Positions 7,017-60,682 of a stretch of 64,000 nucleotides of DNA are shown here, piece after piece (the first letter of the stretch is position 1; every line of letters starts with the position of its first letter). The position numbers were made by a program, and so were the translations under genes. Location of the stretch: contig JAUSLJ010000008.1 of assembly GCA_030646715.1 (NCBI GenBank), positions 124,001 to 188,000 on the forward strand. The letters run 5' to 3'. The notes under the pieces were generated by a model. The model saw only the letters and a program-made list of their open reading frames with translations. It made no database searches and was not told where the DNA came from. The stretch comes from Agitococcus sp. Lineage in GTDB: Bacteria > Pseudomonadota > Gammaproteobacteria > Pseudomonadales > Moraxellaceae.

Positions 7017-7112
7017 AGATTAATAACCCGTACAATATGCAGCACTTTAGAGTTTACGCTGTACAATGCGTGAGTTCTGAATGTTCGCAGCTGATTTATT
7101 TTTGGAAATTTG

Positions 7113-7364
7113 ATGAAAATTATTGCTCGTAACTTATCCCGTGAAACAACGGAAGCGGAATTAACCGCACTTTTTGCAGAGTTTGGTTTGGTTGAATCTT
7201 GTACATTGGTCATGGATAAAGACACTGGAAAATCTAAAGGTTTTGGCTTTATTGAAATGCCTAAACATATTGAAGCCAAACTGGCGATGAAACGCTTAAA
7301 TGCCAAAAAAATTGCAGGTAGCGTGATTCGGGTGAAACTGGCAGACGATGCGGCTAAAAAATAA
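7113..7364 (+). CDS. Single-RRM RNA-binding protein
   Basis: An 83-residue protein made of a single RNA recognition motif. RNP2 is IIARNL (residues 3-8) and RNP1 is KGFGFIEM (about 42-49), with the expected beta-alpha-beta spacing, and it ends in a Lys-rich tail. Proteins of this kind occur singly in many proteobacteria and cyanobacteria, and some are cold-induced. GGAA lies about 5 bases before the ATG. The gene is followed by a near-perfect palindrome facing the convergent fadD gene. The RNA target is unknown. Confidence 0.9.
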   Translation: MKIIARNLSRETTEAELTALFAEFGLVESCTLVMDKDTGKSKGFGFIEMPKHIEAKLAMKRLNAKKIAGSVIRVKLADDAAKK

Positions 7365-7387
7365 CGAATGCTGATTAAATTTTTGTT

Positions 7388-7415
7388 GTAGGGGCGATTC
7401 ACGAATCGCCCCTAC
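7388..7415. repeat. Short palindromic intergenic repeat (GTAGGGGCG family), likely also a terminator
   Basis: Perfect 13-base arms (7388-7400 and 7403-7415) around a 2-base centre, between the convergent RRM and fadD genes. A CCTTTTATTT stretch follows on the plus strand, so it may terminate the RRM transcript. Related palindromes ending in CCCCTAC or CCCTTAC occur near 23727, 27251, 31127 and 61536. Confidence 0.7.
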
Positions 7416-7419
7416 CCTT

Positions 7420-9078
7420 TTATTTATCGCGCAACTCACGCCGCAATATTTTACCGACAGGCGATTTCGGTAACTCATCTTTAAAGACAATGGTACGCGG
7501 TAATTTATAACCCGTTAATCCTGCTTTCAAATGAATCAGCAATGATTCTTCAGTCAGACTTGGGTCTTTTTTCACCACAAACAACTTCACCGCTTCACCT
7601 GATTTTTTGTCGGGAATACCGACAGCCGCACTTTCTAAAACGCCTAAATGCGAAGCGGCAACATCCTCAATCTCATTGGGATAGACATTAAAGCCCGACA
7701 CCAAAATCATATCTTTTTTACGATCCACGATTTTAATATAACCATCAGCTTGAACCGTCGCGATATCGCCTGTTTTTAGCCAACCATCGCTAGTCACCGT
7801 ATCAGCCGTAGCCTCAACTCGCTGCCAATAACCTTTCATTACTTGAGGGCCACGAGCCCATAACTCACCCGCCTCACCTAGTGCAACGTCTTGGCCATCA
7901 TCGTTAACAATACGAATTTCGGTGTTGGGAGTCGGTAAGCCAATAGTACCTATTTGAATCGCTGTCGGTGGATTCATGGTAATCACAGGCGAGGACTCAG
8001 TCATACCATAGCCTTCACAAACCTTACAGCCCGTAATTATCTCCCAATCATGAGCCACTTGATGTTGCATGGCCATACCACCCGCAATGGTCATTTTTAA
8101 CTTAGAAAAATTAATGGTTTTAAAGTCGGGATGATTCATTAAGGCAACAAATAAGGTATTTAAACCCATCATCGCCGTGACATCCCATTTTTTTATTTCG
8201 GCAATAAACGCGCCGACATCACGCGGATTTGTAATCAAAATGGTATGCATCCCCATAATCATGCCAATACACGACACGCCAAATGCAAAGATATGATATA
8301 GCGGCAAAGGACAAACCATCGTCTCACGCCCTGCTTCTAAGGCCGTTGATAAAAAAGCATGGGTTTGCAACATATTACTGGTGATACTACGATGAGTTAG
8401 CATCGCTCCTTTGGATACACCTGTGGTGCCACCAGTATATTGAAGAACGGCAATATCGTCAGGTTTAGGCGTGACTTCTTTGAATTTTGAAGTGTTGGCT
8501 TTCATCACTTGTGTAAATGGAATAGCCGTTGGTAAGTGATAGGATGGAACTAACTTCTTGATATATTTAACGATATTATTAACAACGACGCGTTTAGGAA
8601 ACGGCAGCATATCGGCCAATTCACTAATAATGACGTAACGAATACCCGTTCTTGGTAATACTTCTTGCACCAAACTACCAAAATTCGCCAAAGTCACTAA
8701 TGCTTTACAACCTGCATCTTTAAACTGATGCTCCATTTCCCGTGCTGTATATAAAGGATTAGTATTAACCACCACTAAACCCGCACGCATCGCACCAAAA
8801 ACAACAATGGGATATTGCAATAAATTCGGCATTTGTACGGCAATACGGTCGCCTACTTGTAAATCGGTATTCTGCTGAATCCACGTCGCAAAGGTTGCAC
8901 TATATTTATCGACTTCGGCAAATGTTAATGTTCGACCCATATTAGAAAATGCAGGTTTATTGGCATATTTGCGACAAGACTCTTTAAATAAATCTAAAAT
9001 AGTGGGATAAATATTCGTATCAATTATTCGTGAAATACTTTCAGGATATTTACCTAGCCAAAAATCTTGATGATCCAT
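7420..9078 (-). CDS. fadD: Long-chain fatty-acid--CoA ligase
   Basis: A 552-residue acyl-adenylate enzyme that activates fatty acids to acyl-CoA for beta-oxidation or lipid synthesis. The phosphate-binding loop TGGTTGVSKG is at 215-224. The YGMTESSP motif, the KTGDIA element, and the hinge and C-terminal region VDRKKDMILVSGFNVYPNEIE follow. The catalytic Lys region PKSPVGKILRREL sits near the end. The length is close to FadD (about 560). In a lipolytic organism it would use the products of the lipase and hydrolase genes nearby. Confidence 0.92.
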   Translation of the reverse strand: MDHQDFWLGKYPESISRIIDTNIYPTILDLFKESCRKYANKPAFSNMGRTLTFAEVDKYSATFATWIQQNTDLQVGDRIAVQMPNLLQYPIVVFGAMRAGLVVVNTNPLYTAREMEHQFKDAGCKALVTLANFGSLVQEVLPRTGIRYVIISELADMLPFPKRVVVNNIVKYIKKLVPSYHLPTAIPFTQVMKANTSKFKEVTPKPDDIAVLQYTGGTTGVSKGAMLTHRSITSNMLQTHAFLSTALEAGRETMVCPLPLYHIFAFGVSCIGMIMGMHTILITNPRDVGAFIAEIKKWDVTAMMGLNTLFVALMNHPDFKTINFSKLKMTIAGGMAMQHQVAHDWEIITGCKVCEGYGMTESSPVITMNPPTAIQIGTIGLPTPNTEIRIVNDDGQDVALGEAGELWARGPQVMKGYWQRVEATADTVTSDGWLKTGDIATVQADGYIKIVDRKKDMILVSGFNVYPNEIEDVAASHLGVLESAAVGIPDKKSGEAVKLFVVKKDPSLTEESLLIHLKAGLTGYKLPRTIVFKDELPKSPVGKILRRELRDK

Positions 9079-9187
9079 AATTTACCCCTATAAATGCTAA
9101 AACTCACACCCATTTATTATTATTTGGCAACTATTCAAAGAAATGAATACATTTATCGACAATAAATGGGTAACTTAAAATTAATGA

Positions 9188-10963
9188 TTATTGACCCAAA
9201 ATCCAACGCTCAACACGATGGCGGCGTTCACTCTCTGAGCTAAGTTGTAAGGTGCAGAAATCAGCGATTGACGGCTGTAATACCACCTGACATTGCCTCA
9301 ACTCATCACGTCGAAATAAATGAACACTGAGAGTATCACCTATCGCATAACTGGCCACGGTTTTTTCTAATTGTGCGCTGACTTTTAAACCATCTACCGC
9401 TATTAACACATCACCCGCCGAAACTCCCGCCGCTTGCGCTGCACTACCGCGCCAAACATTTTGCACTTGATACCCACCTTCCGCCATTTGCCCACGAATA
9501 CCTAAACTGGCCATCGGCTGATTTTTGGCATTTTCATATTTAAAATTAACGCTCACTCCTTGAGCCATCAATAACTCAGCAAAAGGCAATTCTTCGGTGC
9601 TATATAAACAGTGTTGCCAAAAATCGGACAAATCATCCTGAACCAAGATTTGTACCAAATTTTGCACGGTATCGTTATCAATACCTAACCCCGTTTTGCC
9701 ATAAGCTTGCCATAGTTGGCGCATTACGGTATCTAAACTAAATTGATTGTCGGTGAGTTGCCGAATTTTTAGATCAATACATAAAGCAATTAGAGAGCCT
9801 TTGACATAATAGCTAACAACACTATTAAGCGTATTTTCGTCTTGTTTATAATATTTTGTCCAAGCATCAAAACTCGAATCGGTTACCGTTTGCTGAAAAC
9901 GTCCTAATGTTCGTAAATGACGAGTAATCGTTTGCGCCAATAAATCCAAATAATCTTGAGTAGAAATAACACTGGCTCTTGCTAATAATAAATCATCATA
10001 ATAAGAAGTGAATCCTTCAAATACCCATAATAATTCGGTGTAATTTTCTTGATGTAAATCGGGATTAACTAAAACCTTAGGTTGAATACGTTTCACTAAC
10101 CACGAATGAAAATACTCATGACTGCATAAACCTAAAAATGCTTTATATTTATCACTGAGTTTATGCTCAGGTTCACTTGTTGATGGTAAATCATCGCGCG
10201 AGCATAATAAACTGGTGGAACTACGGTGTTCTAAACCACCATAACCCGAACCTACCGCCATCACTTGAAATAAATATTGATTAAACGGTGGTGCGTCCTC
10301 CCCCCAAAAATTAATCGCAGCGGCACAAATACGGGTTAAATCGCGACTTAAACGGTTTAAATCCGCACGATGTTGACCTGTCACTACCACTCGGTGTGGT
10401 GTGTTATGCGTGATAAAAGCCACTTCGGAAAAATCACCCATTTCTACAGGATGATCTAGCAAAGTCAAATAATTAGCCGCTTGATAACGATAAACGCCCG
10501 CTTGATGACTTGGTAAAACATCTAAAGTTGTGGCAATACGCCACGATTGATGTTGCGTGGGGAGATGAATTTCTAAAGTTGATAAATTATCTTCTTGGCC
10601 TTCAACCGCCAAAAATAAACACGAGCCATTAAAATAACCATGCGTTTGGTCAAGATGTGCACCGCGTACTGATAAGTCCCAAGCATAAACTTCATAAGAA
10701 ATAATGATTTCTCCTTCATAGGGAGAGACAGACCACTGATTTTTTGCTATTTTTTTGACACTTAATAACAATCCTTCTGTCGTTTTCGCGCTTACACTAA
10801 TGATATGACGCGAAAAGTCACGAATCATGTAGCTCCCGAGAATCCAATTCGGCAACCACAATTTTTGTCCTGAAGGATTGGGCTGCAAAATAGCAAGTGT
10901 GACCTGAAAAAAGTGATGACTCGGATGAAGTGCTGAAACCGTATAATGACACGCTGCGCGCAT
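9188..10963 (-). CDS. M61 family metallopeptidase with C-terminal PDZ domain
   Basis: A 591-residue zinc peptidase of the glycyl aminopeptidase-like M61 family. An N-terminal beta-sandwich domain is followed by the family motif GGLEHR (242-247), the zinc site HEYFH (H282, E283, H286) with the third ligand E316 in FEGFTSYYDD, and a PDZ domain around 490-560. No signal peptide is seen, so the protein is probably cytoplasmic. I start at 10963 because GGAA lies 6 bases before that ATG, while the in-frame ATG 12 bases upstream has no site. It is divergent from the hydrolase gene. The substrate is unknown. Confidence 0.9.
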   Translation of the reverse strand: MRAACHYTVSALHPSHHFFQVTLAILQPNPSGQKLWLPNWILGSYMIRDFSRHIISVSAKTTEGLLLSVKKIAKNQWSVSPYEGEIIISYEVYAWDLSVRGAHLDQTHGYFNGSCLFLAVEGQEDNLSTLEIHLPTQHQSWRIATTLDVLPSHQAGVYRYQAANYLTLLDHPVEMGDFSEVAFITHNTPHRVVVTGQHRADLNRLSRDLTRICAAAINFWGEDAPPFNQYLFQVMAVGSGYGGLEHRSSTSLLCSRDDLPSTSEPEHKLSDKYKAFLGLCSHEYFHSWLVKRIQPKVLVNPDLHQENYTELLWVFEGFTSYYDDLLLARASVISTQDYLDLLAQTITRHLRTLGRFQQTVTDSSFDAWTKYYKQDENTLNSVVSYYVKGSLIALCIDLKIRQLTDNQFSLDTVMRQLWQAYGKTGLGIDNDTVQNLVQILVQDDLSDFWQHCLYSTEELPFAELLMAQGVSVNFKYENAKNQPMASLGIRGQMAEGGYQVQNVWRGSAAQAAGVSAGDVLIAVDGLKVSAQLEKTVASYAIGDTLSVHLFRRDELRQCQVVLQPSIADFCTLQLSSESERRHRVERWILGQ

Positions 10964-11002
10964 AATAAATTCCATGAAATAAATTGTTAGGACTCATATT
11001 TA

Positions 11003-11950
11003 ATGAATAATCCGCACCTCAGCCCTGAAGCGACACTGTTGTATTTACCCACGGCTGATGGCCATAAAATTCCTGTTCGTCATTGGCCTGTTTCGCAACC
11101 ACGCGCCATTATTCATATTGTGCATGGCATGGCTGAGCATAGTGGGAGTTATGATGAGGTAGCGGCTTTTTTAAATCAACAGGGCTTTGCCGTTTTAGCA
11201 CACGATCATCGCTGTCATGGCTTGTCCACCCCTGAAAAACAATTGGGTCATGTCAGTAAACTACAAAACTGGGCAGGCATTCTACAAGATATGCCACTGA
11301 TTCATAATTGGATTAGTGCAACGTATAACAACCTGCCTGTCATTATTTTAGCGCACAGCATGGGGTCCTTTATTAGCCAATGGTTTGTGCAAAACAACCC
11401 CAATCGGATTAAAGCACTTGCCTTAAGTGGTTCTAACTTTACAGCACCGTGGTTTGCTCGTGCCTCCTCGCGGTTAGCGGCATTTGAAATGTGTCGTCAA
11501 GGAGGTAATGGTCACAGTGATCTGATTCATAGTTTAGGGTTTGGCAAGTTTAATAAAGTGTTTGCTCCCAATCGTACTGACTTTGATTGGCTGTCGCGTG
11601 ATACTCACTTTGTGGATAGCTATATTGCTGACCCTTTCTGTGGTTTCCGCATGGCCAACCGTTACTGGCGCGATTTTATGGTGACCTTGGGCGAAATTTA
11701 CCAACCTGCTAATATGAAAAAAATCCCTGAAGGCTTGCCGTTATATATTTTCTCTGGCTCTGAAGATCCTGTGGGTGCTATGGGCAAAGGCGTTAAAAAA
11801 CTGGCGAAAATGCACGCCAAAATCAACAAAGCCAATGTCACCCTCAAAATATACCCTCAAGCGCGTCATGTTGCCTTGCACGAAACTAACGCTACCGAAG
11901 TCCGTCATGACTTAATAGCTTGGTTATTGACCATCGTTCCAGCAGTTTAA
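11003..11950 (+). CDS. Alpha/beta hydrolase, lysophospholipase / monoacylglycerol lipase type
   Basis: A 315-residue serine hydrolase of the PldB/monoglyceride lipase branch. The oxyanion region HGMAEHSGSY is at 41-50, the nucleophile S119 lies in AHSMG, the acid is D255 in SGSEDPVG, and the catalytic His is H289 in QARHVALHE. There is no signal peptide. It should cleave lysophospholipids or monoacylglycerols. It is divergent from the M61 peptidase gene, with only about 40 bases between the starts. Confidence 0.87.
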   Translation: MNNPHLSPEATLLYLPTADGHKIPVRHWPVSQPRAIIHIVHGMAEHSGSYDEVAAFLNQQGFAVLAHDHRCHGLSTPEKQLGHVSKLQNWAGILQDMPLIHNWISATYNNLPVIILAHSMGSFISQWFVQNNPNRIKALALSGSNFTAPWFARASSRLAAFEMCRQGGNGHSDLIHSLGFGKFNKVFAPNRTDFDWLSRDTHFVDSYIADPFCGFRMANRYWRDFMVTLGEIYQPANMKKIPEGLPLYIFSGSEDPVGAMGKGVKKLAKMHAKINKANVTLKIYPQARHVALHETNATEVRHDLIAWLLTIVPAV

Positions 11951-11975
11951 GTTTTAACACTCTAGTAACAATTAA

Positions 11976-12004
11976 CCAAGCAGCGTAGAATCCGCGTTGC
12001 TTGG
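11976..12004 (+). terminator. Possible terminator hairpin after the hydrolase gene
   Basis: Ten-base arms (11976-11985 and 11995-12004) pair fully if one G-U is allowed, around a 9-base loop. There is no clear T run after it, so termination is uncertain. Confidence 0.4.
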
Positions 12005-12186
12005 GTTATCGCGCTTACATCCTGTTTTCATTCTCAAAAACGCACGCCTTTAACCTCTGTATCGTTCTATTTGATGCCACGCATCTGAATTCCATACTAC
12101 ACATAATAAAAACTATCACACCAGCGCAAACGGCCACTCAACATGGTTTGTGTTGCTGTGATTGTTTTTTACTTTTGGGGTTTATC

Positions 12187-13485
12187 ATGAACACAGCACA
12201 TCATATTGTTATTGTGGGTGGCGGCGCAGGCGGTTTAGGCTTGGCAACACAGTTAGGACATAAACTTGGCAAAGCCAAAAAAGCACGTATCACTCTTGTT
12301 GATGCTCACTTGACTCACATTTGGAAACCACTCCTGCACGAAGTCGCCGCAGGTACACTCAACTCATTTGAAGATGAATTAAATTATTTTGCCCATAGCG
12401 TCAAACATCATTTTGAGTTTCAGTTAGGGCGAATGGTTGATATAAATCGCGTCGAAAAACAACTAATGCTTGCTCCACTAATTGCCGAAGATGGTAAAGA
12501 AGTCGCACCCGCCCGCAGCTTACATTACGACACTTTAGTCATTGCCATTGGTTCAACTGCCAATGATTTCGGCACTCAAGGTGCGCGAGACAATTGTATT
12601 TTCTTGGACTCTCGTCCTCAAGCTGATCGTTTTCAGCAACAATTTTTGAATATGTATTTACAGGCTCATGCCCTGCCGAGTCATATTTCACCGCCACCTG
12701 AGCTAAACGTCGCCATCATTGGTGCGGGGGCAACAGGTGTAGAATTAGCCGCAGAACTACATCACGCTTGCCACGAATTTGTACGTTACGGTTTGGATGA
12801 TATTGCACCACAAAACGTCAATATCACGCTCATAGAAGCGGCGGATCGAGTACTTCCCGTTTTACCTGCAGCTACTTCCGCGGCGGCGGAAGCACAGCTG
12901 ACTAAAATGGGTATTACTGTTCGCACTAAAACCAAAGTAGTTGCCATTCATGCCGATGGTATTGAGTGTGAAGGCGGTTTACGCATTCCTGCCAGTTTAC
13001 GTGTTTGGTCGGCGGGTATTAAAGCACCTGACTTTTTGCAAAATATAGCGGGTTTAGAAACGAATCGTATCAATCAATTAGTGGTTAAACCCAGCTTACA
13101 AAGCACGCGAGATGATAATATTTTTGCTTTCGGTGATTGTGCTTCTTGCACCTTACCGAATATGGAACGCCCTGTACCGCCACGCGCACAGTCAGCACAA
13201 CAACAAGCCAACTATTTAGTCAAAGCATTGGCGGCACATATTCAAAACAAGCCGCTGCCTATTTATAAATACAGTGATTTTGGCTCGTTGATTTCGCTCA
13301 GTGAGGGCAATAGCGTCGGTAGCTTAGTCGGCAATATTAACGTCAAAGGTCGTATTGCCCGTTTAATGTATGTCATGCTCTATCGTATGCATCAATATTC
13401 TTTACATGGATTTTTCAAGACGTTGATGCTGTGGAGTAAAGATCAATTGAGTAAATCTTCTAGCCCGACATTAAAGCTGCATTAA
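12187..13485 (+). CDS. ndh: Type II NADH:quinone oxidoreductase (NDH-2)
   Basis: A 432-residue FAD/NAD(P)-dependent oxidoreductase. The FAD motif GGGAGGLG begins at residue 11, and the NADH-binding GAGATGVE is at 179-186. FAFGDCA, the second FAD contact, and the C-terminal region KGRIARLMYVMLYRMHQYSLHG typical of membrane-associated NDH-2 follow. It transfers electrons from NADH to quinone without pumping protons. I start at the ATG at 12187, preceded by GGGG about 6 bases away. In-frame codons extend further upstream but do not match the family N-terminus. A terminator follows. Confidence 0.9.
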   Translation: MNTAHHIVIVGGGAGGLGLATQLGHKLGKAKKARITLVDAHLTHIWKPLLHEVAAGTLNSFEDELNYFAHSVKHHFEFQLGRMVDINRVEKQLMLAPLIAEDGKEVAPARSLHYDTLVIAIGSTANDFGTQGARDNCIFLDSRPQADRFQQQFLNMYLQAHALPSHISPPPELNVAIIGAGATGVELAAELHHACHEFVRYGLDDIAPQNVNITLIEAADRVLPVLPAATSAAAEAQLTKMGITVRTKTKVVAIHADGIECEGGLRIPASLRVWSAGIKAPDFLQNIAGLETNRINQLVVKPSLQSTRDDNIFAFGDCASCTLPNMERPVPPRAQSAQQQANYLVKALAAHIQNKPLPIYKYSDFGSLISLSEGNSVGSLVGNINVKGRIARLMYVMLYRMHQYSLHGFFKTLMLWSKDQLSKSSSPTLKLH

Positions 13486-42965: not shown

Positions 42966-45170
42966 TTACTTTGCCAAAGCTACCCCGTTGGCACGCGCCA
43001 TGTGTAGTTTTTTGTAGTTGTCGATTAGGCGTAGATGCCTGTCAAGCCCTTCTAGCTTCATACTCGTGGGCGTTAAACCATAAAAACGCACGCTACCATC
43101 CACTGAGCCAAGCACTGCATCCATCCGTTCGTTGCCAAACATCCGACGGAAATTGAACGCGTAATCGTCCAGCGCAAATTCGTCGTCCAGTATTACCTCT
43201 AGCACCACATTCATGCACTGATAAAACAATCTACGCTCAACGGTGTTGGTATTGTATTGCAGAAAGGTTTCTACCTGTTCTTTCGCCTGTGCAAATTGCT
43301 TTAAGGCGAGATGAATCAACAGTTTCAACTCCAAAATCGTTAACTGCCCCCAGACGGTATTGTCGTCAAATTCAATGCCAATGAGCGTAACGATGTCAGT
43401 ATAATTATCTAAATCACTCTCATCTAAACGTTCTATCAGAGCCTCAAGACCCGCATCATCCAAGCGATGCAAATTCAAAATATCGGCGCGGAACAACAGG
43501 GCTTTGTTGGTGTTATCCCAAATCAAATCTTCAATGGGATAAATTTCCGAATAATTGGGCACTAGAATGCGGCAAGCGGCTGCACCTAAATGCGTATATT
43601 CAGCCATGTACACTTCTTTGCCCATGTCTTTAAGAATGCCGAAAAGTGTCGCGGCCTCCTCGGCATTGGCGTTGTCACCTTGACTAGAAAAATCCCACTC
43701 GACAAAATCAAAATTCGCTTTGGCACTAAAAAAACGCCACGACACTACACCGCTAGAGTCAATAAAGTGCTCAACAAAGTTATTTGGCTCAGTCACGGCG
43801 TTACTTTGAAAAGTCGGCTGCGGTAAATCGTTCAAACCTTCAAAACTGCGCCCTTGCAGCAACTCCGTCAGACTGCGTTCCAATGCCACCTCCAAGCTGG
43901 GATGCGCGCCGAATGAGGCAAAAACACCGCCCGTACGCGGGTTCATCAAGGTCACGCACATAACGGGAAACTTCCCCCCCATGGAGGCATCTTTGACTAA
44001 AACGGGAAAGCCCTGTTCCTCTAAGCCTTTGATACCCGCCACAATGCTGGGGTATTTCGCCAATACGGCTTCTGGTACGTCGGGTAAAGCCATCTCGCCT
44101 TCAAGAATCTCGCGCTTTACTGCCCGCTCAAAAATTTCCGACAGGCATTGCACCTGCGCTTCGACCAAGGTATTGCCCGCGCTCATGCCGTTACTTAAAA
44201 AAAGGTTTTCAATTAAATTGGAGGGAAAATAAACCACTTCGCCATCGGATTGACGGATAAAGGGCAGCGAACAAATGCCGCGTTTGACGTTACCTGAGTT
44301 AGTGTCGTACAAATGTGAGCCACGCAGTTCACCGTCTGGGTTGTAAATCTCGCGGCAGTATGGATCAAGAATTTCTTTGGGCAGTCTGTTTCTGAGGGCT
44401 GGCTTGAACCATTTTTCATCGGGATAATGGACAAATTCAGCATTGGCGATGTCTTCACCCCAAAACTGACCGTGATAGAAGAAGTTACAGTTTAAACGCT
44501 CAATAAACTCACCCAGTGCCGAAGCAAGCGCGCTTTCTTTGGTTGAGCCTTTGCCATTGGTAAAACACATCGGCGAATGAGCGTCACGGATATGTAAAGA
44601 CCAAACATTTGGCACAATATTACGCCACGAGGCAATTTCAATCTTCATGCCTAATCTGGCCATAATGCCCGACATATTGGCGATGGTTTCTTCTAACGGC
44701 AGGTCTTTACCTAGAATATAGGTACTACTGTCTGAGGCAATGCTTGGCATCAACAACGCTTGTGCGTCAGCATCAATGTTTTCAACGTATTCAATGACAA
44801 ATTCGGGACCTGTTTGCACCACTTTTTTGACGGTGCAACGGTCAATCGAACGCAAAATACCTTGTCGGTCTTTGTCCGAAATATCAGCAGGTAGTTCTAC
44901 TTGAATTTTAAAAATTTGGTTATAACGATTTTCTGGGTCAACAATATTGTTCTGTGATAGGCGAATGTTATCGGTGGGAATATTGCGCGTTTGGCAGTAC
45001 AGTTTCACAAAATAAGCTGCACATAACGCCGACGAAGCGAGAAAATAGTCGAATGGTCCTGGTGCTGAACCATCGCCTTTGTAACGGATGGGTTGATCGG
45101 CCACCACCGTAAAGTCATCAAACTTAGCTTCAAGCCGAAGGTTGTCGAGAAAATTGACTTTGATTTCCAT
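42966..45170 (-). CDS. OsmC-YcaO fusion protein
   Basis: A 734-residue two-domain protein. Residues 1 to about 140 are an OsmC/Ohr-type domain (PIRYKGDGSAPGPFDYFLASSALCAAYF). From about residue 155 on, it is colinear with E. coli YcaO: CFTNGKGSTKESALASALGEFIERLN, SNGMSAGNT, FASFGAHPSLEVALERSLTELLQGR, and a C-terminal helical domain ending FYGLTP. YcaO proteins use ATP to activate amides; E. coli YcaO is linked to RimO methylthiolation of S12. Redox sensing by the OsmC part is inferred. It sits upstream of the copper operon with 80 bases between. Confidence 0.9.
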   Translation of the reverse strand: MEIKVNFLDNLRLEAKFDDFTVVADQPIRYKGDGSAPGPFDYFLASSALCAAYFVKLYCQTRNIPTDNIRLSQNNIVDPENRYNQIFKIQVELPADISDKDRQGILRSIDRCTVKKVVQTGPEFVIEYVENIDADAQALLMPSIASDSSTYILGKDLPLEETIANMSGIMARLGMKIEIASWRNIVPNVWSLHIRDAHSPMCFTNGKGSTKESALASALGEFIERLNCNFFYHGQFWGEDIANAEFVHYPDEKWFKPALRNRLPKEILDPYCREIYNPDGELRGSHLYDTNSGNVKRGICSLPFIRQSDGEVVYFPSNLIENLFLSNGMSAGNTLVEAQVQCLSEIFERAVKREILEGEMALPDVPEAVLAKYPSIVAGIKGLEEQGFPVLVKDASMGGKFPVMCVTLMNPRTGGVFASFGAHPSLEVALERSLTELLQGRSFEGLNDLPQPTFQSNAVTEPNNFVEHFIDSSGVVSWRFFSAKANFDFVEWDFSSQGDNANAEEAATLFGILKDMGKEVYMAEYTHLGAAACRILVPNYSEIYPIEDLIWDNTNKALLFRADILNLHRLDDAGLEALIERLDESDLDNYTDIVTLIGIEFDDNTVWGQLTILELKLLIHLALKQFAQAKEQVETFLQYNTNTVERRLFYQCMNVVLEVILDDEFALDDYAFNFRRMFGNERMDAVLGSVDGSVRFYGLTPTSMKLEGLDRHLRLIDNYKKLHMARANGVALAK

Positions 45171-45683: not shown

Positions 45684-46457
45684 TTACGGGCTTCGCTTGC
45701 TTGCTGTGTTATGCACCCAAATACCAGCCTCACTGACAAAATAAGTATGAAACTCTTCTACTTCAATGTTATAGACATAGTCATAAAAGATATCGCTTTT
45801 TCGCCGCTCTACTAGTTCCAACATCTCTGGCAGCATTTCCATATCATAAGCAGACTTTGCTTCGCTTGGATGTAAACATTCATAAGTGTTTCCGCCTATA
45901 CAGACAGGCTGACCTCTACGAAAATCATACATACCCCGAGGATCATCACTGTGGCCGTATAAAAAAACTATTTTAGAGCTATCTTCTTCATAGATCACAT
46001 TTTCCCAACCTTGTTCAGATGTAATGATAGATATTTTATTGTGATATGTTTTTATTACATGGCACTCTAGCATTGCTAAGGCTTGTGCTGGTTGCCAACC
46101 TAATGCATGCACATCTTCCTCACCTTCATATACCATCGTCCAAAAAGCATGCTCTTCAGTGCAAAATAAATATCTATTTCCAGTTCCTGCACCCTCTTCG
46201 ATAACATCATAACTAAAATAAGTAATCCTCTTCTTTTCCGCCGAATTAAAGGTACTTAACACCCGTTTATACTCATTAGGCGCATCAGGGTCATTTTCGG
46301 GGCGACTCAGCACCAAGTCCCCCACTTTCAACTTATCAATCGGCACTAAGCCCATATCGGTATGCACCAACGTCCCTGCCACAAAACAATCACCATCAAA
46401 CTTACAATCGCGCTCAAAGCCATGCTGGGACTTACCCTCTATCACCACACGTTTCAT
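45684..46457 (-). CDS. Orphan Hint (hedgehog/intein) domain protein
   Basis: A 257-residue protein that is almost entirely a Hint domain of the polymorphic-toxin type. The autoprocessing Cys C24 begins CFVAGTLVHTDMGLVPID, followed by LKVGDLVLS; the B-block His lies in CTEEHAFW. The C-terminal block ends YNIEVEEFHTYFV, then WVHNT (H249, N250). Only seven residues follow the Asn, and no toxin domain or N-terminal delivery domain is attached. AAAGGA precedes the ATG, so the start looks genuine. It lies downstream of the VapC gene on the same strand. Its role is unknown. Confidence 0.82.
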   Translation of the reverse strand: MKRVVIEGKSQHGFERDCKFDGDCFVAGTLVHTDMGLVPIDKLKVGDLVLSRPENDPDAPNEYKRVLSTFNSAEKKRITYFSYDVIEEGAGTGNRYLFCTEEHAFWTMVYEGEEDVHALGWQPAQALAMLECHVIKTYHNKISIITSEQGWENVIYEEDSSKIVFLYGHSDDPRGMYDFRRGQPVCIGGNTYECLHPSEAKSAYDMEMLPEMLELVERRKSDIFYDYVYNIEVEEFHTYFVSEAGIWVHNTASKRSP

Positions 46458-52365: not shown

Positions 52366-54702
52366 CTATCGGAATATATCTAATACTTTGTTGACCGCAC
52401 CATTGACAATGGTATTAATCGGGTCATTCAGCACATCTTTTTCGGCAGCACAAGGGACTTTATCAACAGGGATACTACTGGTGAGATACGGCACATACAT
52501 CGCTCCATCACAACCTTCCGCGCTTAATTGCCCTGACATTTTATCAATCCATTGCCATTGCACATTATCAGGCTGCACGGGCTCTAAAGAAGTCGGTTTT
52601 AATCGGCTCATTAAATCCACCCATATAGGCAATGCGCCTGATGCGCCCGATAAACCTGTCGCTTTATTGTCATCATTCCCTAACCAAACAACCGCCAAAT
52701 AATTACCTGTATAACCTGCAAACCACGCATCACGCATATCATTGGTGGTGCCTGTTTTACCTGCCATGACTAAATCTTGCGGTAAACGTGCATACGCGGC
52801 GGCTCCTGTACCATTACGCATGGTTTGTTGCATGGCGTAGTTAATTAAATATAAAGGCGCAGGGTCATACACTTGTTTCACTTCTAAACCATAACGCGTC
52901 AGACGATTACCCTTTGAGTCCACCACTTCACGAATAGAACGCGGTGAGGTTTGAAAACCATTGGTAGCAAAAGGTTGATATAGCCGCAACACTTCCATTG
53001 GCGACATATTAATTGTCCCCAACAACAACGAAGGATAATTGGGCATATCTTGCGTGACACCTAATTTTTTGAGCGTGTCGATGACTTCTGGCACACCCAC
53101 CGTCATGCCTAAACGAATCGTCGCTTGATTATAAGAATGCGCCAAGGCGTCGTACAACGGCACTAAACCATGATCTTGATGGTCGTAGTTTTCGGGTGTC
53201 CAAACATCACCACCTTGACTCGCTACTTGTACGGCACTGTCATCTATTGGCGTCAATAAACTGTATTGACCTGTCGTTAACGCCGTTAAATAAACTGCGG
53301 GCTTTAATAAAGAACCCACTTGCCGTGACGCATCTAAAGCACGATTAAAGCCCGTAAAATTACCATAACCGCCAATCACCGCTAACAATTCGCCATTTTC
53401 AGGATTCGCCACCACCACTGAACCTTGTAAATTGGCTAAACGGCTGCCGTTACGAGCTTTTAACTGAGTCACTTGATTATTGAACGATAATTGCGCCGAA
53501 TTTTGCACTCTCGGGTCTAAAGTGGTAAAAATTCGCAAACCTGACGAACTCAAATCATCCTCTTTATATTCTTGTTTTAATTGCCGACGTACGACATCCA
53601 AAAAGGCAGGGTAAATACTCAATCCTGCGGTAGGTGTTTTTAGTATGCCCAATGGTTTGGCTTTCGCTTTATCAAACTGCGCTTGAGTAATATGACCATC
53701 ATTCATTAAATTTGCTAAGACGACATCACGACGCGCTAAAGCACGTTCAGGATTGCGCCACGGATTATAAAACGAAGGGCCTTTGACTAAACCCACTAAT
53801 AACGCCACTTGATGCAAGGATAATTCGCTAATCGGCTGACCAAAATAAAACTGCGCCGCCAAACCAAAACCGTTAATCGAACGATTACCATTTTGGCCGA
53901 TATTCACTTCATTTAAGTAGGTTTCTAAAATTTCTTTCTTTTCATAATGCCATTCTAATAACAATGCCATTAACGCTTCATTGACTTTCCGTTTAATTGA
54001 ACGCTCGTCTGTTAAATAGAAGTTTTTCACTAATTGTTGCGTTAACGTACTGCCACCTTGACGCAACTCGCCACTGGTCAAATTCACAAAAATCGCGCGT
54101 AACGTACCGCGAATAGAAACGCCAAAATGATGATAGAAATTCTTATCTTCGGTCGCTAATAAAGCCTGCTCTAAATATTTTGGGGCTTCTTTGAGTTGCA
54201 TTAATACACGGTCTTCGTTTTGTTTGGGATAAATCCCACCTACGACTAACGGCTCTAAACGGACAATTCCTTTATTATTTTGTTGGGTACTGGCTAAGTC
54301 GGTTAAGACGTTACCTTGAAATTGCAGTTTTAAAACTTGAGATTTTTCGGTGTCATCACTAAAAACAAAACCACGGGTGTAAATATATAATTCATTATTT
54401 TTTTCGCTATAGACACCGGGGCTGTCGTAACTGCTTTGTGCACGATAATGTAATAATTTTAATTCAGCGAGTACGTCAGATTTACTAACGGCTGCGCCTG
54501 TATAAAGTTCTAAAGGTCTGCTATACACTTTCGCGGGAATCGCCCAGCGTTTGCCTTCAAATTTTTCGCGCACTGTGCCATCGAGTGATAAGGCATAAAT
54601 ACCTAAACCGACGGCAAACAACAGGCCGAGCATCATCAATAAAACAATAATGGTGAGAATAAAACCTTGAGCGGGCTTTTGAGGAGGATTGACGCGCATC
54701 AT
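52366..54702 (-). CDS. mrcB: Penicillin-binding protein 1B
   Basis: A 778-residue bifunctional peptidoglycan synthase. One membrane helix (about 15-38), a UB2H domain (about 55-140), the glycosyltransferase domain with the catalytic E185 in ATEDKNFYHHFG and RQGGSTLTQQLVKN, and the transpeptidase with S464 in GSLLKPA, SYNQ and KTGTTND. Two ATG codons lie in a row at the start; the ribosome site is weak and overlaps an AACTTGT/ACAAGTT palindrome (54703-54717). The TPR lipoprotein gene follows. Confidence 0.95.
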   Translation of the reverse strand: MMRVNPPQKPAQGFILTIIVLLMMLGLLFAVGLGIYALSLDGTVREKFEGKRWAIPAKVYSRPLELYTGAAVSKSDVLAELKLLHYRAQSSYDSPGVYSEKNNELYIYTRGFVFSDDTEKSQVLKLQFQGNVLTDLASTQQNNKGIVRLEPLVVGGIYPKQNEDRVLMQLKEAPKYLEQALLATEDKNFYHHFGVSIRGTLRAIFVNLTSGELRQGGSTLTQQLVKNFYLTDERSIKRKVNEALMALLLEWHYEKKEILETYLNEVNIGQNGNRSINGFGLAAQFYFGQPISELSLHQVALLVGLVKGPSFYNPWRNPERALARRDVVLANLMNDGHITQAQFDKAKAKPLGILKTPTAGLSIYPAFLDVVRRQLKQEYKEDDLSSSGLRIFTTLDPRVQNSAQLSFNNQVTQLKARNGSRLANLQGSVVVANPENGELLAVIGGYGNFTGFNRALDASRQVGSLLKPAVYLTALTTGQYSLLTPIDDSAVQVASQGGDVWTPENYDHQDHGLVPLYDALAHSYNQATIRLGMTVGVPEVIDTLKKLGVTQDMPNYPSLLLGTINMSPMEVLRLYQPFATNGFQTSPRSIREVVDSKGNRLTRYGLEVKQVYDPAPLYLINYAMQQTMRNGTGAAAYARLPQDLVMAGKTGTTNDMRDAWFAGYTGNYLAVVWLGNDDNKATGLSGASGALPIWVDLMSRLKPTSLEPVQPDNVQWQWIDKMSGQLSAEGCDGAMYVPYLTSSIPVDKVPCAAEKDVLNDPINTIVNGAVNKVLDIFR

Positions 54703-54928
54703 AACTTGTTACAAGTTAGAAAAGTTGCGCCATTGTAACGCGTGATAACGGTGAGTGCGATGTTCTTTTGTGAAGTTCGCGTGAAGGCTGGGCGAAGTAT
54801 TGGCTGTTTTCATCATCTCGCCAATTTCTTAATTCCCACAAACATTGATAAGAAATATTTACCCCCTCGTATTATCATACCAACTACCAATTTTTATTGC
54901 CGTTGAACACTCCGCCACAGGAATGGAT

Positions 54929-57900
54929 ATGCCCACCGCCTCACCACAACACCCGCTCATTCAATTATTTCAATTTTTAACCGCCTTTGCCGCCAGTCAT
55001 CAGCCACTTCCTCGTCAACTCAATCAACAACCCTTAGCTGACTCCGCACGTTTTTGGGATGAATTGCCGCAAAGCAATGATTATGTGCAAATCACAAATC
55101 ACCCCGAAGATGAGCGCGAATGGTTGTTGCAAGTCTCGTTACCGCCACAACATCCCTGCCCTCAGCCACCTTCTATTATTGAAGATTGGTTAGCGAAAGC
55201 TTGGCAAGATTGGCGTACCGTTGAAGTCAGCTATCATCAACAAAAAAACCATAAGCCTTTTTTAGCCAAAACCGAAATCGAACAATTTAGTGATAACGAA
55301 CAGCGTGTGACGGCATGGCAAACATGGTTATTAGCGCGTGAGCAATGGTGTGAAGTACAACAGCGTTACCAAGCCATTCGTGATTTATTCGCCAAACTAC
55401 AAATGATTTACACCGAACTACAAAAACAAAGTGGCGACCTTGAATTAGTCTTAGCTTGCGCCATGTTGCAAAAAGAACCGACTTACCAACATCCTTTATT
55501 AATCAAACCCGTACAACTGCATTTTGATGGTCTGAAAAATCGTTTTACTCTGGAAGATAGTGAACGTAATACTGAACTCTATTTACCGTTACTGACAGAA
55601 ATCACTGAAAACGCCAATTTAATTAGCCAGACATGGCAAACCCAAATCGAAAGCCTGCATCCTTTAGACGAAGCGGCGCGTGTCCATACTCAAGCGATGC
55701 AAGATTGGTTAAGCAATCAACCCGATTGTGCCGACGTAAAAATTGATTATCGGCCTGTGTTGTTTATTCGTTCGCGCGGCGGCTGGACGGCACAAGTTGC
55801 CACAGACATCGTTAAACAATTAGAAAACCGTCATTTAGGCGATATCCCCTTATATTTACGACGCTTAGCAGGAATCAGCGCGGAACAAACACAGCAAAAT
55901 CAGGCGACCGCGTATACTTCGCCCGAAAATATTTTATTTGCCCTACCCGCCAATCCTGAACAATATCAATTAGCGCAACAGCTAGAAACGCACGATATAG
56001 TTTTGGTGCAAGGGCCACCCGGAACAGGAAAAACACATACTATCGCCAATCTGATTGGTCATTTATTAGCACAAAAGAAACGTATTTTAATTACCAGTCA
56101 CAGCTCCAAAGCCCTACGCGTATTGCGTGAAAAAGTGCCTGAAAACATTCGTAGTTTGTGTGTTAGCGTCTTGGATGATGATAAAAAAAGCAAATTAGAG
56201 TTAGGCGAAGCGGTTGCCGCACTCAGTCAAAAAATGGCGCAAGGCGGACAACTGCAAATAGCGGCTAATCAATTACAACAGCAACGCGCACAACTGCTCA
56301 GCGCACAAAAGCAGCAATTACATGGCCAACAACTGTGTTTACGCTGTGAATACGAGCCAATTATTATCGGTGGCGCAGAAACTCCGCCTAGCGAGGCGGC
56401 AAGAATCGTCAGTGATGGTGTCGGTAAACACGATTGGCTACCCCCGTTATTAGAGCAAGAGCGCGGTAAACTTTGCCCATTATCGCCGACCGAATTACAA
56501 TGGTTATATGCCAGCCAAGCGTTGATTCCTTTCGCTGCCGAACAAGAATTAGCCGCAGGGTTGCCTGCACTCAACGACTTGCCCTCGCCCGATGACTGGC
56601 AACAGACCATCACCTCCTTACAACAGCATCAACAAGCGGCGAATAGTCGTCAACATTGGTTATGGCCACGCTTAGAAACGGTACATATTAGTCGCTTATC
56701 TGATTCATTAACGACGCTGGAAAACTTATCGCTAGAGCTAAAAAACCTACGTCAGCAAGGATTATGGTTAGACCATCTTGTTGAAGCAGGTTTAGACAGT
56801 CCACTGAGCCATGAAGCATGGCTCGACTTTTTCAAACTCATCGAACAAAGCCATCAACAAACGCAACAAGCACAAAGTCTGCTATTAGAATACGCGCCTA
56901 GCCTCAGCCCTGAATTGTGCGCGAATGCTGAAACCTTAACGACACTCAACGAAATTCACACCTATTTAAGTGCGGGTGGAAGTTTTAGTTGGTGGAAAAT
57001 GTTGGTCAATCCTGCATGGAAAACCATTCTTCAAGCCGCACGTTGTAACGATGCCAACGTCAACCAACAAGTGCATATTGAAGCCTTGATTGCTTATGTC
57101 AGCCACCAACAAAGCCAACAACGGTTAATCCGCCGTTGGCAACGACAAATTTTGGTTATCAACGGTGCAGAGTTAAATCCTCAACAACCGAGCAAATCGG
57201 CGATAGACTGGTTACCGCATTTGCAGCAAGCGTTTTTATGGGGACAACAACGTTGGCAATTATTTGTTAGCCAACATATTCAGCCTTTGGGGTTGACGCT
57301 GACACAACTAGAACTACACATCACTCCCGATTTACACGCGCAAACGCCACGTTTAACGCGCACACAACAACTGATTCAGCAAGAGCTAATTCCCGAATGG
57401 CAAGCGCATTTAGCGCGTCATAGTGCCGAACAAGTCGCCACCACCATTCATCACAGTCAACAAAAACTACAACCATTTTTGCCACATCGACCCAGTACCA
57501 GCGTGATTCACACACTGTTACAGGCATTACAACAACAAAACATCACCGCTTATCGTGAGGCGTATCAACAGCTACAATCCTTGCTGAGTTTAAGTAAAGA
57601 CTATCAACAACGGCTTAACTTGCTAAATAAGCTACATCAAGGCGCACAACAATGGGCGCAAGCCTTACGTTTACGGCAACCGCCCCACCATACGCCACTT
57701 TCAACCGATAAAGACATCACGCTGGCATGGCAATGGCGGCAACTACACGACGAATTACACTATCGTCAACAGCTCGATCTAGACCGTATCAGCCGTCAAC
57801 TACAACAAACAACCGATGACTTGCAGCGTGTCACTGCCGAATTGATTAGCCAACAAACATGGGCGCATCAAGTGGTGGCGGCTGAACCGTATCGTCAACA

Positions 57901-59464
57901 TTTAATTGGCTGGCAACAAACACAAACAAAAATTGGCAAAGGCACAGGCAAACAAGCGCAACGCTTTCGGCAACTGGCACAACAGCAACTGAAACAAGCA
58001 CAATATGCCGTGCCTGTGTGGATTATGCCCTTAGCGGAAGTATTTAGAAGTTTTCAGGTGGATAGCCAATTTGATGTGGTGATTGTTGATGAAGCCAGTC
58101 AAGTTGATATCAGCGGCCTACTCGCCACTTATTTAGGCAAAAAAGTGGTGATTGTCGGCGATGATGAACAAGTCAGCCCCGATGCCGTGGGTACAGATTC
58201 AGGCATTGCCCAACGTCTACAACAACAGTATTTACAAGATATTCCTAACGCGCATTTATACGACGGTCAAACCTCGCTTTATGATTTAAGCAAACAAGTC
58301 GCCAAAGGCCAATTATGTTTATTAGAACATTTTCGTTGTGTACCTGCGATTATTGGTTTTAGTAATCAACTCAGTTATCAAGGCCGTATTAAAGCCTTGC
58401 GTGAACCTGCTTCTAGTCAATTACAGGCTCATGTGGTGCCTTATCGCGTACAAGGTGAACGCATTGGTAAAGCAAAAATCAATCATGGCGAAGCAAATGC
58501 GATTGTTAAATTGATTCAAGCGATGTGTAATCACCCTGCTTATATCGGCAAAACCTTGGGTGTCATTTCGTTATTAGGCAATGAACAAGCGACACTCATT
58601 GAACTACAACTACGCGCCGTATTACCGATGTCGGTGATTGAAGAACGTCGTTTATTGTGTGGCAATTCGGCACAGTTTCAAGGTGATGAACGCGATGTCA
58701 TTTTGCTGTCGATGGTTGATAGCAACGAAGGTGATGGTGTCATGCGTTTACAGGGCGATGGCGCACGCGATATGTACAAAAAACGCTACAACGTCGCCGT
58801 CAGTCGTGCCCGTGACCAGTTATGGATAGTGCATTCAGTCAATTATCAAACCGACTTAAAACCCTCCGATTTACGCCGCCAATTATTAGAATATGCCCAC
58901 GAGCAAGCCAACGCGCACAGCAACACCGAAACGCAACAAACAGAATCGGTCTTTGAAGAATTAGTGCTGAAACAATTATTGGCGCACGGATATCAAGTGC
59001 AAACGCAATATCCCGTTGGTTATTACCGTATTGATTTAGTGGTGATGGGTGAAAATAGCCGTTTAGCGGTCGAGTGTGATGGCGACAAATATCACAGTGG
59101 CAGCGAAAAAATTGCTGAAGACCTCGCCCGACAAGCCATATTAGAACGTTTAGGCTGGCAATTTTATCGGATTCGCGGCAGTGTCTTTTTTAGAGAGCCT
59201 GAACAGGCATTAGCAGGTTTATGGCAACGCTTGGCCGATTTAGGCATTCAACCCAAAACGATTGAAAGCTCAGAAACTCCGAGCAATGAAATGCTACATC
59301 TTGAAATTATTTGCTTAGCCGAACAAATGGAAACTGTTATTGAGCCTGAAACTGTAGTTGAAGAAATCGCTTCAACACCAGCAATTGAAGAACTACCTAA
59401 TCATCAATCTATTAATGATATGTTTAGGCAACGGTCGGAGGCTAGACGAAAAGGATTGCTTTAG
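54929..59464 (+). CDS. SF1 (UPF1-like) helicase with C-terminal VSR/MTES_1575-like nuclease domain
   Basis: A 1511-residue protein. Walker A GPPGTGKTHT begins at G362, followed by a long Gln-rich helical insert (about 480-1000). Walker B is VVIVDEASQ (D1054, E1055), then GDDEQVSP, FQGDERDVILLS and the RYNVAVSRARDQLW motif VI. The C-terminal region (about 1340-1460) reads like a PD-(D/E)xK nuclease of the MTES_1575/DUF559 type: D1369 in YRIDLVV and E1382/D1384 in AVECDGDKYHS. I start at 54929 with AGGA 6 bases before it. It stands alone between mrcB and the lipase. An anti-phage or DNA/RNA quality role is inferred; see findings. Confidence 0.85.
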   Translation: MPTASPQHPLIQLFQFLTAFAASHQPLPRQLNQQPLADSARFWDELPQSNDYVQITNHPEDEREWLLQVSLPPQHPCPQPPSIIEDWLAKAWQDWRTVEVSYHQQKNHKPFLAKTEIEQFSDNEQRVTAWQTWLLAREQWCEVQQRYQAIRDLFAKLQMIYTELQKQSGDLELVLACAMLQKEPTYQHPLLIKPVQLHFDGLKNRFTLEDSERNTELYLPLLTEITENANLISQTWQTQIESLHPLDEAARVHTQAMQDWLSNQPDCADVKIDYRPVLFIRSRGGWTAQVATDIVKQLENRHLGDIPLYLRRLAGISAEQTQQNQATAYTSPENILFALPANPEQYQLAQQLETHDIVLVQGPPGTGKTHTIANLIGHLLAQKKRILITSHSSKALRVLREKVPENIRSLCVSVLDDDKKSKLELGEAVAALSQKMAQGGQLQIAANQLQQQRAQLLSAQKQQLHGQQLCLRCEYEPIIIGGAETPPSEAARIVSDGVGKHDWLPPLLEQERGKLCPLSPTELQWLYASQALIPFAAEQELAAGLPALNDLPSPDDWQQTITSLQQHQQAANSRQHWLWPRLETVHISRLSDSLTTLENLSLELKNLRQQGLWLDHLVEAGLDSPLSHEAWLDFFKLIEQSHQQTQQAQSLLLEYAPSLSPELCANAETLTTLNEIHTYLSAGGSFSWWKMLVNPAWKTILQAARCNDANVNQQVHIEALIAYVSHQQSQQRLIRRWQRQILVINGAELNPQQPSKSAIDWLPHLQQAFLWGQQRWQLFVSQHIQPLGLTLTQLELHITPDLHAQTPRLTRTQQLIQQELIPEWQAHLARHSAEQVATTIHHSQQKLQPFLPHRPSTSVIHTLLQALQQQNITAYREAYQQLQSLLSLSKDYQQRLNLLNKLHQGAQQWAQALRLRQPPHHTPLSTDKDITLAWQWRQLHDELHYRQQLDLDRISRQLQQTTDDLQRVTAELISQQTWAHQVVAAEPYRQHLIGWQQTQTKIGKGTGKQAQRFRQLAQQQLKQAQYAVPVWIMPLAEVFRSFQVDSQFDVVIVDEASQVDISGLLATYLGKKVVIVGDDEQVSPDAVGTDSGIAQRLQQQYLQDIPNAHLYDGQTSLYDLSKQVAKGQLCLLEHFRCVPAIIGFSNQLSYQGRIKALREPASSQLQAHVVPYRVQGERIGKAKINHGEANAIVKLIQAMCNHPAYIGKTLGVISLLGNEQATLIELQLRAVLPMSVIEERRLLCGNSAQFQGDERDVILLSMVDSNEGDGVMRLQGDGARDMYKKRYNVAVSRARDQLWIVHSVNYQTDLKPSDLRRQLLEYAHEQANAHSNTETQQTESVFEELVLKQLLAHGYQVQTQYPVGYYRIDLVVMGENSRLAVECDGDKYHSGSEKIAEDLARQAILERLGWQFYRIRGSVFFREPEQALAGLWQRLADLGIQPKTIESSETPSNEMLHLEIICLAEQMETVIEPETVVEEIASTPAIEELPNHQSINDMFRQRSEARRKGLL

Positions 59465-59470
59465 GCAATA

Positions 59471-59501
59471 AAAAACGGCCACCGAAGTGGCCTATTTTTT
59501 T
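59471..59501. terminator. Terminator between the helicase and lipase genes
   Basis: Six-base arms (59477-59482 and 59487-59492) with CGAA loop, seven Ts on the plus side, and an A run (Ts on the minus strand) on the left. Likely serves both convergent genes. Confidence 0.8.
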
Positions 59502-59516
59502 AGCTCAAACAGTCGA

Positions 59517-60509
59517 TTAATACCCTGCTGTTTTTAAACGATTTGCTTGTTGACGATACACCGACACAGGATTGGTTGTAAAAATGCTGACTAAACCAAA
59601 CAACTGATTAACTTCATCCAAATGGTTCATCGCATAGTTATCACGAATCACTTGCCCTAAATGGCTGGCACAACGACCGACTAAACCATCATTCGCTTCG
59701 GGAATCACTAAGCCCGAAGCCGCTAAAGCCACATCAGAAATATCTAAAAGATTGGTTAAATGACCTGTACCGCTCCAAGAGTAATAACGCACACCATTGA
59801 CGTTATAAGCACCTTCGGCACATTTGGTGGTTGGCATGGCTTGTGGGTATTTGGCATTAAACGCGGCAGAGCCTTTAGTGGTTAACGAATCCATACCCGC
59901 TAAGGCATCTTGACGATAACCTTGACCAGAAATCGCATCAATCATTAAAAAGAAACCATTAATCGCACCCGATAATACGGTTGCCGTAACTGGGCCTAAA
60001 CCTGGAACTGTTGTTACACCTTTAATGACATCAGCAACTGGTGAACCTGTTTGTGGACCACCAACACCTGTTACTGAAGAAATCTTGCTAGGAATCGCTG
60101 CGGCCACATAACGAATGGAGTGATTACCATGACTATGGCCAATCAAATTGATTTTGGCCGCACCGCTAATCGCCAGAATATTTTGTGCTTGGGCTAATAA
60201 TTGCTCACCCCGCACTTCTGATGATTGGAAAGAAGCCACCTGCGTGACATACACCGAAGAACCACCAGCCACTAAATCTTTAGGAATGCCATACCAATAA
60301 TCAACAGGCCCTACTTTAGAAAAACCCGCCATGCCATGAGCAAAAACTAAGGGATATTTAGTTTTCGTATAAGTGGAACTGACACTAACACTCCCTGTTG
60401 CCTTACATCCACCAGCTACAGAGCATAAGTTATAAGAAGCTGCTTGAGCTGTTACAGCAGTTGCTAATAAAGATAGGGTTAATGCAGTTGTGGAAAATAC
60501 GTTATTCAT
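59517..60509 (-). CDS. Secreted triacylglycerol lipase, family I.1
   Basis: A 330-residue extracellular lipase. Signal peptide to about residue 24 (NNVFSTTALTLSLLATAVTAQA). Oxyanion loop LVFAHGMAGF; the triad by analogy to Pseudomonas LipA is S126 (GHSHG), D274 (NDGLVG) and H296 (MNHLD), with D298 as a calcium ligand and C230/C280 as a disulfide. The C-terminal HLDEVNQLFGL and YRQQANRLK match family I.1 closely. AGGA lies 8 bases before the ATG at 60509. Family I.1 enzymes normally need a foldase (lif), whose gene is not adjacent here. Confidence 0.93.
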   Translation of the reverse strand: MNNVFSTTALTLSLLATAVTAQAASYNLCSVAGGCKATGSVSVSSTYTKTKYPLVFAHGMAGFSKVGPVDYWYGIPKDLVAGGSSVYVTQVASFQSSEVRGEQLLAQAQNILAISGAAKINLIGHSHGNHSIRYVAAAIPSKISSVTGVGGPQTGSPVADVIKGVTTVPGLGPVTATVLSGAINGFFLMIDAISGQGYRQDALAGMDSLTTKGSAAFNAKYPQAMPTTKCAEGAYNVNGVRYYSWSGTGHLTNLLDISDVALAASGLVIPEANDGLVGRCASHLGQVIRDNYAMNHLDEVNQLFGLVSIFTTNPVSVYRQQANRLKTAGY

Positions 60510-60682
60510 GGATGTCATCCTGATTTATTGTTGGCTAATTGTTGTTTTTGGTAGCAGTCTTTGTTTGTAACTGCCTATGGGAGCGGATGCTAATCGCAGT
60601 GAAATTACGATGCAATGGCTAATAATCATCAAGACATGACGTGAATTGACAATGGAATTTAAAAAAGACTTGTATTTCAATC

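Follow-up and report, generated by a model that had tools for sequence, protein, structure and literature searches.

The window analysed here, a stretch of 64,000 nucleotides from Agitococcus sp. (assembly GCA_030646715.1, contig JAUSLJ010000008.1, positions 124,001 to 188,000 of the forward strand), encodes at positions 54929-59464 (+) a 1511-residue protein in which a UPF1-like superfamily 1 (SF1) helicase is joined to a C-terminal Vsr-type PD-(D/E)xK nuclease. Judged by its sequence and relatives, the protein is probably a mobile, self-contained single-gene translocase-nuclease defence effector, a reading to which a probability of about 0.66 is assigned. The reading builds on the order of the domains and their conserved motifs, the nuclease fold seen in the model, the accessory and patchy distribution of the gene, the purifying selection acting on it and the defence genes found around its relatives. 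From these features defence itself is inferred, as are the substrate, the direction of travel, the role of a long helical arm, the coupling of motor to nuclease and the discrimination between self and non-self.

The coding sequence is intact and runs from an ATG at 54929 to a stop codon ending at 59464, in agreement with the coordinates and length given by the first-pass annotation, which was made from the letters of the window. A second in-frame ATG at 54923, two codons further 5′, is an equally plausible start. The gene is present in one copy in its own 4.2-Mb genome (G000). Its features, in window positions, are as follows.

54929-59464, plus strand: coding sequence of the UPF1-like helicase-Vsr nuclease (P0001), 1511 residues, from the open reading frame (ORF) list and Pfam
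54929-55948, plus strand: N-terminal region, residues 1-340, tentative, from a structure model with a mean predicted local distance difference test score (pLDDT) of 67
56009-56035, plus strand: Walker A motif QGPPGTGKT, residues 361-369, invariant across 11 aligned proteins
56186-57958, plus strand: all-helical insertion from motif Ia to motif II, residues about 420-1010, from the model and the family-wide spacing
58088-58102, plus strand: motif II DEASQ, residues 1054-1058, from the alignment
58196-58843, plus strand: second RecA-like domain (AAA_12) with motif VI, residues about 1090-1305, from Pfam, alignment and model
58952-59233, plus strand: MTES_1575 Vsr-type PD-(D/E)xK nuclease, residues 1342-1435, from Pfam, alignment and model
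59033-59035, 59072-59074 and 59078-59080, plus strand: codons of the nuclease residues D1369, E1382 and D1384, from alignment and model

The C-terminal domain is a nuclease of the MTES_1575 (Vsr-type PD-(D/E)xK) family, since it shows both a full-length Pfam match and the D...ExD residues. The MTES_1575 profile is matched from end to end by residues 1342-1435 (E = 2.9e-31; 107.9 bits, the cut-off being 38.2), and DUF559 comes second with a weaker match. In an alignment of the query with ten relatives, all full-length or nearly so (11 proteins in total), E1382 and D1384 do not vary and D1369 is changed in a single protein (L031), whose nuclease may be inactive because the equivalent of D1369 has been lost. 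The modelled nuclease (residues 1341-1416) has the alpha-beta-beta-beta-alpha-beta order expected of PD-(D/E)xK folds, with D1369 located on the second strand and E1382 and D1384 on the third. Structural comparison with VIA-align places it closest to the catalytic domain of I-Bth0305I (3r3p; Z 12.8, 2.1 A over 96 residues) and to the DUF559 protein NGO0050 (3hrl; Z 12.0, 2.1 A over 91 residues, 30% identity). Pfam, alignment and modelled fold agree on the nuclease-like domain and the three residues that the first-pass annotation had proposed. MTES_1575 was itself introduced as the Vsr-fold endonuclease domain of a protein that also bears an SF1 helicase (PMC3710099).

By its motifs I, II and VI, and by its nearest solved relatives, the remainder of the protein is a UPF1-like SF1 helicase. 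Pfam finds AAA_11 in split form (residues 349-456 and a second piece) and AAA_12 at residues 1121-1302, and the core is intact, with Walker A at G362-T369, DEASQ at 1054-1058 and motif VI, RYNVAVSRAR, at 1286-1295. The residues G362, D1054/E1055 and the motif VI arginines R1286/R1293, which the first-pass annotation had already named, are invariant in all 11 aligned proteins. Sen1, UPF1 and senataxin are the nearest solved helicases by sequence, and the helicase core in a model of residues 300-1470 (mean pLDDT 69, predicted template-modelling score 0.39) matches the structures of UPF1, senataxin (SETX), Sen1 and Dna2. Motifs Ia and II are separated by an insertion of about 590 residues, modelled entirely as helix. 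The distance from Walker A to the DEAS motif is 674-698 residues in every family member measured, and the helical arm is accordingly regarded as a feature of the family. Upstream of the core, a model of residues 1-345 shows a long helix (124-166), strands (171-210 and 271-282) and a further helix (285-299) that precedes the P-loop. This region can be read as the stalk and domain 1B, an oligonucleotide/oligosaccharide-binding (OB) domain, of UPF1-like helicases; a comparison of this weak model (mean pLDDT 67) with the Protein Data Bank gave no match.

The gene is accessory within its genus. It stands alone in a housekeeping neighbourhood, as the first reading of the window had described, between two conserved genes, and its surroundings are laid out below.

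52366-54702, minus strand: left flank, conserved and divergent gene for a penicillin-binding protein 1B-like (PBP1B-like) protein, from locus comparison
54787-59469, no strand: accessory segment, lacking a counterpart in G003 and replaced by about 115 bp between the aligned flanks in G001, from locus comparison
59477-59492, no strand: symmetric, terminator-like stem-loop that the convergent lipase gene shares and that is kept in G001 and G003, from locus comparison
59517-60518, minus strand: right flank, conserved and convergent gene for a secreted lipase-like protein, from locus comparison

In G001, a genome of the same genus that is 99% complete, the PBP1B-like and lipase-like genes are adjacent without the helicase gene, with about 115 bp between the aligned ends. 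The same two flanks lie together without it in a second congener, G003, and no remnants of the helicase gene were found at either of these empty sites. A third congener, G002, carries a partial copy with 68-79% protein identity, located away from PBP1B and beside genes for a LysR regulator and an isocitrate lyase-like protein, although the contig with this fragment is short and contains runs of N, so that its location carries a caveat. At the corresponding aceA locus the flanks of G000 and G001 diverge beyond the LysR gene, and an empty site is not definable there. Of the 391 genomes searched in the order, two gave a match at E ≤ 1e-40, one being the genome studied here. The first-pass annotation had allowed for a gene conserved at this locus in all related genomes with no tie to defence; the distribution across these genomes is a different one.

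The stem-loop at 59477-59492 had been taken for the gene's own terminator. It is a palindrome that also adjoins the lipase gene in G001 and G003, although neither has a helicase gene at this site, and this assignment is therefore rejected.

Some further observations concern the flanks. In G003 the slot between the two genes (L071 3320-3772) is occupied by about 450 bp of other sequence that does not align, and in G002 the PBP1B gene is followed by a CotH-like ORF (L069 5639-7111), so that the intergenic spot varies between species. The lipase-like gene at 59517-60518 has paralogues in G000, G001, G002 and G003 and is one of a family that yields about 7-9 matches in each genome of the genus, some of them clustered in tandem (G000 C23); at the corresponding G001 locus the gene is broken by stop codons. 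Elsewhere in the window, inspection by eye revealed a Hint-domain-like ORF of 257 residues at 45684-46457 (-), CFVAGTLVHTDMGLVPIDKLKVGDLV...VHN, which adjoins a YcaO-like gene at 42966-45170 and may be the remnant of a larger Hint-bearing protein.

Full-length relatives of the protein are rare and are scattered across phyla, plasmids and prophages. They occur in a Vampirovibrio metagenome-assembled genome, a Phragmitibacter metagenome-assembled genome and a few other genomes, and on plasmids of Fusobacteriota, Deinococcota, Actinomycetota and Pseudomonadota. Among the IMG/VR viral contigs, a query with the single protein found none, whereas a query with the family alignment found five relatives. 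The neighbourhoods of 20 loci were surveyed for defence, restriction or DNA-methylation genes within about 8 kb, and such a neighbour was present at 11 of them.

L072: HsdR, McrB-like and McrC genes directly upstream
L073: HsdM, with a recombinase or integrase close by
L075: cytosine methylase, within a prophage; the least convincing of the 11
L077 (Fusobacteria): type I restriction-modification (RM), with a recombinase or integrase close by
L079: DUF4194, Wadjet-like
L080 (relative at 8699-13429) and L140 (relative at 6920-11650): BREX, the relative beginning 63 bp after brxL
L112: type ISP RM with an integrase
L138: AbiE
L141: Wadjet (TIGR02678/TIGR02680/DUF2397)
L143: methyltransferase and restriction endonuclease

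The family is enriched beside known defence genes, albeit in a small sample. Windows half a plasmid away on nine annotated plasmids served as a control that is small, keyword-based and dependent on incomplete annotation, and in which two related Acinetobacter BREX loci are not independent; here, defence neighbours were present at 7/9 family loci compared to 1/9 controls (Fisher p 0.015). When an orphan methylase is counted, the controls rise to 2/9 against 7/9 (Fisher p 0.057). The restriction-positive control window is part of the same RM cluster as the family locus, on a 50-kb plasmid.

Individual loci show additional features. The BREX-associated relatives at L080 and L140 reside on two different Acinetobacter plasmids and are placed as if they were the last gene of the BREX operon. 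Immediately upstream of the Fusobacteria relative, at a distance of 14 bp, lies a gene for a PC4/YdbC-type single-stranded DNA (ssDNA)-binding protein (L077 7540-7767), a possible hint at an ssDNA substrate. The Sphingobium member (L143 6584-12397) carries the annotation DUF3320 protein, is 1937 residues long and is located behind the methyltransferase and restriction endonuclease genes, while the Vampirovibrio relative (L030 292-5370) carries C-terminal pentapeptide repeats, possibly a DNA-mimic or regulatory tail.

The first-pass annotation had offered single-gene defence as an inference from the architecture. That reading is partly supported, and better than before, because the congener sites are empty, the distribution is patchy and mobile, and 11/20 loci have defence neighbours. 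Several findings weigh against it. No defence gene is found among the neighbours of the helicase gene in its own window, and nine of the 20 relatives' loci (L030, L031, L067, L068, L074, L078, L113, L142 and L144) have no recognised defence neighbour. The plasmid control has the shortcomings described above, and the structure model is of middling quality. In addition, the codon use of the gene and its G+C content at third codon positions are ordinary and indistinguishable from those of core genes, and synonymous sites of the G000 and G002 copies have diverged to saturation, as they have in the core gene PBP1B. For these two reasons a recent import is rejected. The ratio of non-synonymous to synonymous substitution rates between the two copies is 0.12-0.21, compared to 0.10 for PBP1B. 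Patchy loci, ordinary codon use, saturated synonymous divergence and this low ratio together indicate that the gene has long been present in the genus, that it is mobile or frequently lost, and that purifying selection still acts on it.

Long residence and purifying selection would also suit a housekeeping-like helicase-nuclease of DNA repair or of the replication fork, similar to Dna2 and accessory by chance. Dna2 is indeed among the structural matches, and L030, L067, L113 and L142 are relatives without a defence neighbour. The nuclease of Dna2 is N-terminal and of the RecB type, while that of the query is C-terminal and of the Vsr type. Nearly all related genomes lack the gene, its loci differ between congeners, and relatives are found on plasmids and viral contigs beside restriction and BREX genes, which makes such a role very unlikely.

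The same mobility bears on another possibility, namely that the gene serves mobile elements, in a selfish or interfering function against plasmids or in prophage exclusion, rather than host anti-phage defence. Relatives reside on plasmids, in a prophage or beside recombinases at L030, L073, L074, L075, L077, L112 and L144, with a recombinase or integrase close by at all of these except L075. Many relatives, however, are chromosomal or are part of operons with host defence systems, and its distinction from defence is in part semantic; this explanation is considered unlikely.

For a single-gene defence effector, a mechanism can be proposed in which the UPF1-like SF1 motor, consisting of a putative stalk/1B region and two RecA domains, would bind single-stranded nucleic acid and translocate along it with ATP. 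The long helical arm in RecA1 would sense the substrate or scaffold a complex, and translocation or remodelling would then deliver or unleash the C-terminal Vsr-type nuclease, which would cut the replicating or broken DNA of the invader. DNA seems a somewhat better candidate for the substrate than RNA, this being the least certain step.

A broader proposal, for which the odds appear even, is that motor, helical arm of about 590 residues and Vsr nuclease in one polypeptide make up an unnamed single-gene defence family that spreads alone across Fusobacteriota, Verrucomicrobiota, Actinomycetota, Pseudomonadota and other phyla, and that has repeatedly been taken up at the end of BREX operons or alongside Wadjet and restriction systems, where it would provide a second line of attack. 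The restriction step of BREX is not well understood, and the position next to brxL on the Acinetobacter plasmids suggests that the protein may contribute a nuclease to BREX. Few candidate single-gene defence proteins are as large as the helicase-Vsr nucleases, about whose mechanism little is known; the query family represents the compact end of this group, with neither DUF4011 nor partner genes. As the copy is solitary and the congener sites are cleanly empty, a knock-out or transfer test would be simple.

Comparison with known families places the protein close to, but outside, several of them. The best NCBIfam match is ProA (NF058533), which shares the helicase-Vsr core, at 206 bits against a cut-off of 1500 and true-member scores of 1828-2032; the N-terminal part of the model is unmatched. 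Hhe (NF042953 / PDLC02194), a DUF4011 anti-phage protein that likewise combines a helicase core with a MTES_1575-type nuclease, scores 139 bits (cut-off 2000, true members 2096-2597), and no DUF4011 domain was found in the query by Pfam. PDC-S37 (PDLC05009), a single-gene candidate defence family of similar length and core, is the best PADLOC match with 187 bits over part of the model, compared to 1118-1678 over the whole model for its best members; its Walker A-to-DEAS spacing is 617-618 residues as opposed to 674-698. Membership in each of the three is rejected, as the query family also forms a separate clade. In a maximum-likelihood tree whose root is not fixed, the 16 family rows are set apart from ProA, Hhe and PDC-S37 with branch support of 100/99. 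A shared-core model of residues 1015-1440, built from the query family and hence scoring its own members high by construction, gives 380-700 for that family and 173-191 for members of the other three, and the gap stays wide for members left out of the model (L112, L113, L138 and L141-L144). A literature search returned no paper that names PDC-S37 or gives a description of ProA.

The first-pass annotation had drawn its analogy with Mokosh type II, also a single-gene SF1 helicase with a nuclease. The analogy is a loose one and holds for the helicase core, which is all that the PADLOC Mokosh models match (best MkoC stretch 811-1347). The nuclease of Mokosh type II is a PLD domain, which Pfam does not find in the query, where a PD-(D/E)xK domain takes its place. 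Membership in Mokosh type II (MkoC) is accordingly rejected, and ProA, Hhe, PDC-S37 and the Vsr-fused CnuH are nearer. The Agitococcus protein represents an unnamed, rare and partner-less branch of the helicase-Vsr defence-associated proteins.

The closest published architecture, matched by its description and not by sequence, is CnuH of the type III-B CoCoNuTs (eLife 2024, PMC11090510), in which a UPF1-like helicase carries an OB/stalk region and, behind Walker A, a large helical, coiled-coil insertion, and is fused to a Vsr-like nuclease. The query shares the type of helicase, the large helical insertion and the direct fusion of the nuclease, and its tentatively modelled N-terminal region may correspond to the OB/stalk region. 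In type III-B operons CnuH is accompanied by the McrB/McrC-type CnuB (NxD-type) and CnuC, the coiled-coil protein CnuA and the Hsp70-like CnuD, whereas the query stands alone, with none of the four genes beside it and PBP1B-like and lipase-like genes as its neighbours. The likeness raises the possibility that the protein is a mobile solo relative of CnuH that binds and cleaves aberrant or viral RNA, possibly in a suicidal manner, in line with the matching architecture and with Sen1, UPF1 and senataxin as the closest solved helicases by sequence. Against it stand not only the missing partners but also the sequence of the McrB beside L072, MNDIDRS, whose spacing is NxxD instead of NxD. By structure the nuclease most resembles a DNA endonuclease fold (3r3p) and DUF559 (3hrl), and the PC4-like gene directly before the Fusobacteria relative encodes an ssDNA-binding protein. 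Such an RNA-cleaving solo relative of CnuH is regarded as improbable. For the proposed DNA-directed effector, the Hachiman system HamAB offers a comparison in manner of working only, as the action of its helicase on damaged or aberrant DNA activates a nuclease (PMC12278908); HamAB consists of two proteins from other helicase and nuclease families, and no homology is claimed.

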